Source: Tubulanus polymorphus (taxonomy: Eukaryota; Nemertea; Palaeonemertea; Tubulaniformes; Tubulanidae). From it: DNA of 64,000 nt. The stretch covers positions 8,251,001 through 8,315,000 of the forward strand of contig NC_134025.1 in NCBI RefSeq assembly GCF_964204645.1, read 5' to 3'. Both the position numbers and the translations under genes were made by a program. The notes under the pieces are model-generated. The model ran no database searches, was not told the origin of the DNA, and saw only the letters and a list, made by a program, of their open reading frames with translations. Below are positions 17,740 through 64,000 of the stretch, in pieces; within the stretch, counting starts at the first letter, position 1; the number at the start of each line of letters is the position of its first letter.

Positions 17740-20700
17740 ATGGCGAGTTGGAAGGCCACCCCTTCAGGAGCTGCACTGGACCAGTATAACAGTCTAGGTT
17801 CATATAGAGTTACTGGTGGGCTTAGACGCACTGATACATTATCCTCAAGGCGCAGTTCTGATTCCAGTAGGCTAGGCCTTAGTTTTATATTCCACAGGGG
17901 CGGATCTTGGGGTAAATCTGAGGGTCTTCTCAGAATTCTAGGGGCATACCTAAAAGAAAAGGGCACTGATAACACACCGAGCGCAGCGCGCAAGGCTAAT
18001 ACTGCTTCAGCGCGCGAGGCTAACACTGCTTCAGCGCGAAGCCCCCCAGAAAATTTTGAGATTCCAGCACTGATTTGAAGCCATTTCCTGCATTTTGAGT
18101 CATGAAATTGTTTTGCCAGCAAAATTTTTTGAGGGCACTTAAGAATTTGAGGGTCTTCCAGAAGACCTGTAAGACCCCCTAGATCCGCGCCTGTTCCAAT
18201 TTAATCATACCTCTTTAGATATTCTGGTATATAACTAATACATATTGTAATGGTTTTCCAATTGCTTCTATATTGATTAGTTACTGTATCCACTTGAGTT
18301 TCAACCTACTGTTGAGTCAATCGTGTTCATTTAATCCTCTTTCTATTCATGATAATTGGATTCTTTAGACTATATGACTTTCTGCACTTGAATAAGCTTA
18401 TTAGAGTTGATCGAATGAAAGTAATTGAATTCTTTATACGATTTACAGCATGTTAACTAATGAGCTAATCAGTGTTGCTGTTTCCCCAGTGAACAAATTA
18501 TAAAAAGCAAAAGATACATATTTTGATGAAAATTTATAAGATTGAGGGTTTGATTAAATCATCCAATGATAAGTGCATGAATCTACCCTTTCGAAAATTT
18601 CAGTTATTGTGTTCCATATTCTTGAAATATCATTATAAGGCCTATAGTTTTTAGGACTAAGTAAAATTTACTTTCTACGTTTGGCAATGGTATCATTTGG
18701 TTTTATGAGTTTCTTTCCCCGTGCAAACTTCTATTCTTCATGGCAACCTGATTGATTCTTCTACCATTGGAATGTTTTGGTTCAACAAAATAGAATTTCA
18801 CCAAATATGGCCTAACAAGGTATCTTTCAGTACTTCCACTTCTTGAATTCATTTAGATGGTGCCCAGGAAGCTGCTGAAGTTGTTGAGCTATTGAGGAAG
18901 AAGGCGATTTATCTTACTGGTAGGCTATGACTTTCCAATCATAAATGCCATTATCTGAAATTATAACAAATTCTAAAGATTGGGTCAATATTATTGGATT
19001 GTTTAGATGAAAAATTTTATATAATTCAACAGACAATCCTTCAGATTTTTGTTAAATTTAATTTATTAATCTTTAGGGGGACGCGATAAACGTGGCGGTC
19101 CATTGATGACATTTCTTTCCAGTCATGATGCCTCCCCGCTACCTCAATCTGATCTCAAGGCATGTGTTTCTTATTTATCAACTGTTCCATGGTAAGTTCA
19201 TTTAGGATAACACATTTCTTTTCAGGATATATTGTAACATTGAAAAATTCACCACTACTTGGTGCTAGTACTATTCTGTTTAGTGAATAAGCATTCCACT
19301 GAATAAAGAAGTTTTATCAAACACAAGAAAGGCTATCAAAACAATATCAAATTCTTTCCTGATTCGATTACTATAACGAGTGCATTGAATGTTTTAATCT
19401 AGTCAACTATAGCCTATATACAAAACTATGCACGTCCTATGCTATGGACTGACAACGAGCAGTGATCAAGTGGCCAGTGAGCGTATATTCATTTTACTGT
19501 CTCATAATCGATAGGAAATACGTGTAGGCCTAATGAAAATTCAACCATTTGATCTGCACTGTGCAGGTGTAATACTAGTGTATAGTACACAAAGTATAAT
19601 CTATTCATTTGTGAAAAATCAAGTCGAACATGTCTTGAATTGCCCGCATTTAGTCAGCTATACAACAATACAAAATTACTACCTGAATAAGATATTTAAA
19701 AGCGAATGTTTTAAATGGAAAATAGATTTTTATAAGTCTCTGTTAAGAGAGTGGTTTCCTAAAGATTCTCAGTTGTAATTAATATGGCTTCAACTAAAGT
19801 TCTTGAAAAGCATTTCTCACTGGGCTTTGCTTAAAAATGTATTCGCCTATTACATCAAAAACGCTGATTACTAATGCTTCAAAGGTCCCTTGACCTAGGA
19901 ATTTTCCCTTTCATGTCAATAGAACTATCAATTTGTGATTTGTTGACGCTTTACACACATTCTTACAGTTGTTTCCATATTTGAAATACCAATCACAGCA
20001 ATAGTGTAAGCCATTTAGGTCAATTATATTTATTTTTGACTTAGTCTAACAATTGGGCCTAGTAAATCGATGGTTTTATTCAGGAAATACTATAAGTACT
20101 TTAGGTTATTTGAGATAATTAAAGCAAATTCGAATGGTTATAATTGCTTGTTTTGAAGTAGTAATTTGGGTTTTTAAGTCAAAAAGATCCATCTGACGGG
20201 TATTTAGAACTGTATTCAAAAGGACTGTCACCTTCCCCTGAAATTGAAAAAAAAAGATTGATGTCATTGATTTTCACATCGACTTGTCCATGATTCTCAA
20301 AACTTTGAATATTTTTTCAGCATGGAATCATTACGTCATGGTTTCACAGTGATCATAGATAACCGACAAGGTTACTGGAAGAATCTCAAGTCACTTTTTC
20401 AGTTATTATTGGTAGGTCTAACATTTAAAACAATTTCCTTCAATAAGTACCATGAATACAAGGTTTAAGTGGCAAATTCTCTTTTTAGGACACAATGCCA
20501 AGGACTCTGTATATGATCCTGGTAATTAAACAAGAACAGAAAGTCAATGTTGTGTCCTCATTGAGACGAGAAAAGACAATACCTGGTTTAGATGTAAGTT
20601 GACTGACAACTTGGTTAATTCCAATGTAGAAAGTATTTTTCATAGATATTATGTTTATTTCTCTAGACGGTAGAACTCCGTTAATTCGGATTTTTCAATC

Positions 20701-64000: not shown

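Follow-up and report, generated by a model that had tools for sequence, protein, structure and literature searches.

A SESTD1-CCDC141-titin gene row with a complete-looking titin in a probable lophotrochozoan

The genes SESTD1, CCDC141 and TTN follow one another in human, as do CG15822, zormin and sls in Drosophila, and Hanashima et al. (2025; PMC12198301) described these rows as the 'connectitin cluster'. According to the accessible part of that paper, cnidarians and placozoans possess a single-gene connectitin, and the human, fly and single-gene forms were derived from a TRIO/KALRN paralogue. The species compared for synteny there are chordates and the fly; its main text, as far as available, does not contain the words mollusc, annelid or lophotrochozoa, and its trees hold octopus, oyster, earthworm and Capitella. 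Three histories are left undecided there: a split of titin in protostomes, a fusion in chordates, or a loss with later regain. We here analyzed a stretch of 64,000 nucleotides (C1:8251001-8315000, termed the window) from contig C1 of a genome of 267.8 Mb in 77 contigs, in which SESTD1, CCDC141 and a titin gene adjoin in one order on one strand, as seen in the exon model of the window, domain matches and genome-wide family searches.

Open frames were collected on both strands (with a further listing of the minus strand for the first 6.6 kb of the window), exons were modeled on the plus strand, the resultant proteins were compared with Pfam and PDB, and the same families were searched in the entire genome.

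Three genes in a row and their age

A preliminary description of this DNA had proposed a SESTD1-CCDC141-titin row on one strand, and the exon models and the domain matches at the locus confirm the row (Table 1), albeit the start given there, position 17740, was rejected. At its N-terminus, SESTD1 carries a TRIO/KALRN-type Sec14 domain, incomplete in our model, of which two exons matched the kalirin Sec14 (7ur2) with an E of 1.3e-13 in phmmer; this match is expected because the two proteins are ancient paralogues. The split Sec14 exons were missed by the genome search with CRAL_TRIO_2. SESTD1 scored 139 bits against PF24915 (Spectrin_SESTD1; cut-off of 27), and the whole-genome search with this family returned matches only at window positions 23229-23758. 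The CCDC141 model remained below the same cut-off with 21.3 bits. None of the 42 RhoGEF matches in the genome fell within C1:8.25-8.50 Mb, and in this respect SESTD1 is unlike TRIO/KALRN. Altogether, the genes did not group with Trio/Kalirin, as the TRIO-like and obscurin-like loci lie elsewhere on the contig and the spectrin repeats of SESTD1 match the SESTD1 family.

In CCDC141, an Ig domain comes after the spectrin repeats, and the only match to DUF7799 in the genome is at window positions 30143-30346. Its first two coding exons, which begin with a candidate ATG, were missed by the exon finder, and their join to the next exon is tentative. The N-terminal peptide presumably resembles that of human CCDC141. 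Long TA/TACA microsatellites occupy an intron of SESTD1 (window 20849-21776) and one of CCDC141 (32267-32536).

Table 1. Positions of the features at the titin locus and of related loci (window positions unless preceded by C1)
Feature	Position	Strand	Evidence
SESTD1, two Sec14-domain exons (19070-19189, 20322-20411; placed by eye)	19070..20411	+	phmmer to kalirin Sec14 (7ur2), exact window letters
SESTD1, further exon 21807-21920 (probably the end of Sec14) and spectrin-repeat exons	21807..25637	+	PF24915, exon model
CCDC141, first two coding exons with ATG start (27804-27938, 28231-28341; by eye)	27804..28341	+	open frames with AG/GT borders
CCDC141, spectrin-repeat exons	29658..35201	+	Spectrin 97.7 bits, Spectrin_7 65.5, DUF7799 59.8
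CCDC141, linker and Ig domain split over two exons	35301..35883	+	I-set 54.6 bits, exon model
Listed part	36024..39137	+	local domain map, exon model
Listed part	39228..40119	+	
Listed part	41936..42223	+	
Titin, five further N-terminal Ig domains	42647..45133	+	
Titin, I-band Ig domains and start of a giant spring-like exon (joined stretch, 63002-72379)	53107..64000	+	domain map, exon model
MLCK-type gene, behind titin	C1:8476.7-8491.8 kb	+	
TRIO-like locus	C1:4.43-4.47 Mb	-	RhoGEF 103.4 and 56.1 bits, Fn3, Ig, kinase
Obscurin-like locus	C1:27.99-28.01 Mb	+	Ig domains, weak RhoGEF match, kinase matches

MicroRNAs of the let-7, mir-10 and mir-2 families carry information on the clade of an animal. 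In this genome, let-7 (51.1 bits, slightly below the Rfam cut-off of 53.5) adjoins a gene of the mir-10 family, and mir-2 gave 12 matches at E <= 0.001, seven of which were above the cut-off; in the control for mir-2, one of 14 bacterial and archaeal genomes was matched, below the cut-off. The let-7 and mir-2 findings point to a protostome. On contig C6, Hox-like homeodomains were found on one strand in 10 of the 11 short stretches near the homeobox matches, the eleventh containing none, and one of them bears a KLNGP extension, which we take to be Lox5-like with presumed Lox2/Lox4-like neighbours. The source animal is thereby probably a lophotrochozoan, as judged from these sequences. No Hox link to titin was found, the Hox-like genes being on C6 and titin on C1. 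COX1, sought as a guide to the mitochondrial code, was not found, no tandem telomere repeat was seen in the outer 1500 bases at either end of C1, and no Rfam family reached its gathering threshold in the window.

The human order is that described by Hanashima et al. (PMC12198301, in its available part), as the preliminary description had claimed. Since this order is common to human and an animal looking like a protostome, and a probable lophotrochozoan at that, the cluster is at least as old as the bilaterian ancestor; the proposed dating to early bilaterians is thus supported. The single-gene forms published for cnidarians and placozoans (PMC12198301) reach beyond this dating. The 'shared history' suggested for the three genes likewise fits the published descent from a TRIO/KALRN paralogue. 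Collinearity itself has been published for human and fly and is not new in general. What this locus adds is a probable lophotrochozoan case, in which the titin looks complete and has a ten-domain repeat, an MLCK-type gene lies next to it, and twitchin is a gene of its own.

Titin and its kinase

The titin of this locus looks complete from end to end. Its A-band super-repeats contain Fn3 triplets, with 33 consecutive Ig-Ig-Fn3-Fn3-Fn3 units in the domain map, and the continuity from CCDC141 to the M-band would follow from exons, not from transcripts. The last domain in a frame of 7213 codons is a weak Ig (14.4 bits), behind which a possible phase-1 donor lies; approximately 230 bases beyond, the next Ig exon starts in phase 1, both read by hand; one junction, near C1:8383.8 kb, looks spliceable by such inspection. 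Two exons (window 45454-46451) share the motif II.YA.EY.SAILTL..DG.L, possibly a local Z-disc repeat, and no Pfam family exceeded its cut-off there. No match to Titin_Z was listed for the linker exons at 45.5-47.6 kb or the other scanned pieces, the presence of this model in the library being unchecked.

The kinase of the titin locus (C1:8461859-8463036) retains AxK, HLDLKPEN and IDFG, and is predicted from these motifs to be active. The accessible part of PMC12862963 calls the titin kinase of vertebrates a pseudokinase, which would suggest a loss of activity on the vertebrate line, and states that C. elegans TTN-1 bears a kinase as well, a precedent for a protostome titin with a kinase. Against Aplysia twitchin, a distinct kinase in an Ig/Fn3 cluster at C11:1.496 Mb reached 410.7 bits. 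In a tree of 11 kinases, it formed a clade (starred) with the Aplysia and C. elegans twitchins with support of 98/98, outside of which the titin-locus kinase was placed. The latter kinase thus does not belong to the known twitchin clade but may be sister to it.

Competing histories of titin

We propose, with a probability of roughly 45%, that the common ancestor of protostomes and deuterostomes possessed a separate twitchin alongside a complete Z-to-M titin, the latter within the tandem array SESTD1-CCDC141-TTN-MYLK. Later losses would have removed the A-band half from the titin of ecdysozoans and twitchin from vertebrates, with neither a fusion in chordates nor a split in protostomes, and the thick filaments of lophotrochozoans would be measured by a ten-domain super-repeat versus the vertebrate eleven. 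Several observations weigh against our main reading of the locus, a SESTD1-CCDC141-titin row whose titin looks complete, which we nonetheless regard as very likely. The titin-locus kinase scored best to twitchin (Aplysia 310.7 bits, C. elegans 288.6), followed by MYLK4 (283.5) and human titin (246.9). Among four kinases of this genome scored against human titin, the TRIO-like and obscurin-like kinases being left out, it was the closest (others 204.9, 193.4 and 179.4), but the C11 twitchin query comprised 233 letters versus 254, its score being somewhat lowered thereby. The best tree set the titin-locus kinase beside the twitchins (support of 40/27), and neither a clade of it and human titin (p = 0.46) nor one uniting it with the MLCK group (p = 0.45) was shown or rejected; from the kinase alone, the titin affinity is not proved. 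CCDC141 was identified from its place in the row, its architecture and DUF7799, the last being suggestive, and in PDB nothing beyond a weak spectrin match (E of 1.7e-4) was obtained for its first 472 letters. As the analysis covered genomic sequence, the gene ends, promoters and transcript joins are putative. The exon finder admits no stop within an exon and imposes phase compatibility; it linked SESTD1 straight to the third CCDC141 exon, took another donor (131512) at the single titin junction checked by hand, and put everything between and including a nearby kinase gene and the MLCK-type gene into one chain, so that the merged chain provides no evidence for gene boundaries or continuity. Its first settings yielded spurious mini-exons and were replaced, and the second settings still merge genes. 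Finally, Loreau et al. (2025; PMC12063666, in its available part) already credit lophotrochozoans with two titins that mix I-band and A-band features.

The A-band half may alternatively be a second gene of the twitchin type, as twitchins start with several Ig domains, the kinase scores best to twitchin, and an exon finder that enforces joining is blind to a boundary. Two separate genes are present in ecdysozoans (PMC12063666, same part). We nevertheless regard such a boundary as improbable, given the donor and the phase-1 Ig exon beyond the 7213-codon frame, the twitchin kinase on C11, and an Ig-Ig-Fn3-Fn3-Fn3 unit unlike the Fn3-Fn3-Ig pattern of twitchins. That the A-band half is twitchin itself was rejected, as C11 holds the twitchin kinase and the nesting of the C1 kinase with those of Aplysia and C11 was rejected (p = 0.018). 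An independent origin of the complete titin within lophotrochozoans, in which an I-band titin was fused to a duplicated A-band gene, is less improbable but still unlikely: the ten-domain repeat differs from the 11- and 7-domain repeats of vertebrate titin and the branch position of the kinase is not settled, whereas the general layout matches that of vertebrates, namely Fn3 triplets, the kinase, and then 11 Ig domains versus 10. Turning to the row itself, an active constraint on adjacency, for instance through muscle enhancers in common or promoters that overlap, beyond descent and slow rearrangement, is conceivable but somewhat doubtful, because several family members stay on contig C1, which fits slow rearrangement. 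A cnidarian-type single gene was ruled out by the lack of a RhoGEF match in the locus and the presence of let-7 and mir-2.

Neighbouring loci and comparison with known clusters

The next large open frame starts approximately 2.3 kb past the last Ig domain of the titin locus, and probably belongs to an MLCK-type gene, likewise on the plus strand, whose border with titin is provisional. It contains a possible start, MGNTGLSC, after which the exon finder begins the exon, and which resembles an N-myristoylation signal. The kinase of this gene, approximately 15 kb further, is nearest to human MYLK4 in PDB (310.5 bits) and precedes a stretch that we assume to be calmodulin-binding-like and a final Ig. 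Behind the gene are reverse-transcriptase-like open frames (C1:8493936-8496624), presumably of a Penelope-type element. Upstream of SESTD1, a DYRK/HIPK-like kinase gene has an open frame of 987 codons (window 6483-10302), and a split-exon kinase of the family (L038) at C11:607.9-610.9 kb is also nearest to human MYLK4 (292.6 bits). In amphioxus, titin, OBSCN, MYLK and TRIO share a chromosome (PMC12198301, as above).

The present locus adds a third lineage to the gene order compared by Hanashima et al. in chordates and fly, and a complete-looking titin together with a separate twitchin renders the origin of titin testable through lophotrochozoan genomes and RNA. Among the papers listed, judged by titles and the beginnings of abstracts, with figures and supplements outside the scope, no description of a ten-domain, lophotrochozoan, molluscan or annelid titin was found except that of Loreau et al. 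Section 6 of that paper gives no domain pattern or linkage for its lophotrochozoan titins, and the layout seen here may be in its figure; the two titin-like genes with mixed features are as in our genome. Twitchin/projectin has a related kinase and Ig/Fn3 design, and is here a separate gene on C11 nearest to Aplysia twitchin. In the cnidarian and placozoan connectitin, as here, Sec14 is followed by spectrin repeats and then by many Ig domains, but the present locus has no RhoGEF match and its CCDC141 has its own candidate ATG exon. In Drosophila, the order is the same and a CCDC141 counterpart with several Ig domains adjoins titin, whereas the A-band features, found here downstream on the same strand, are in a second gene, projectin. 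The human cluster comprises the same three genes in the same order, with a titin composed of Z, I, A, kinase and M parts.
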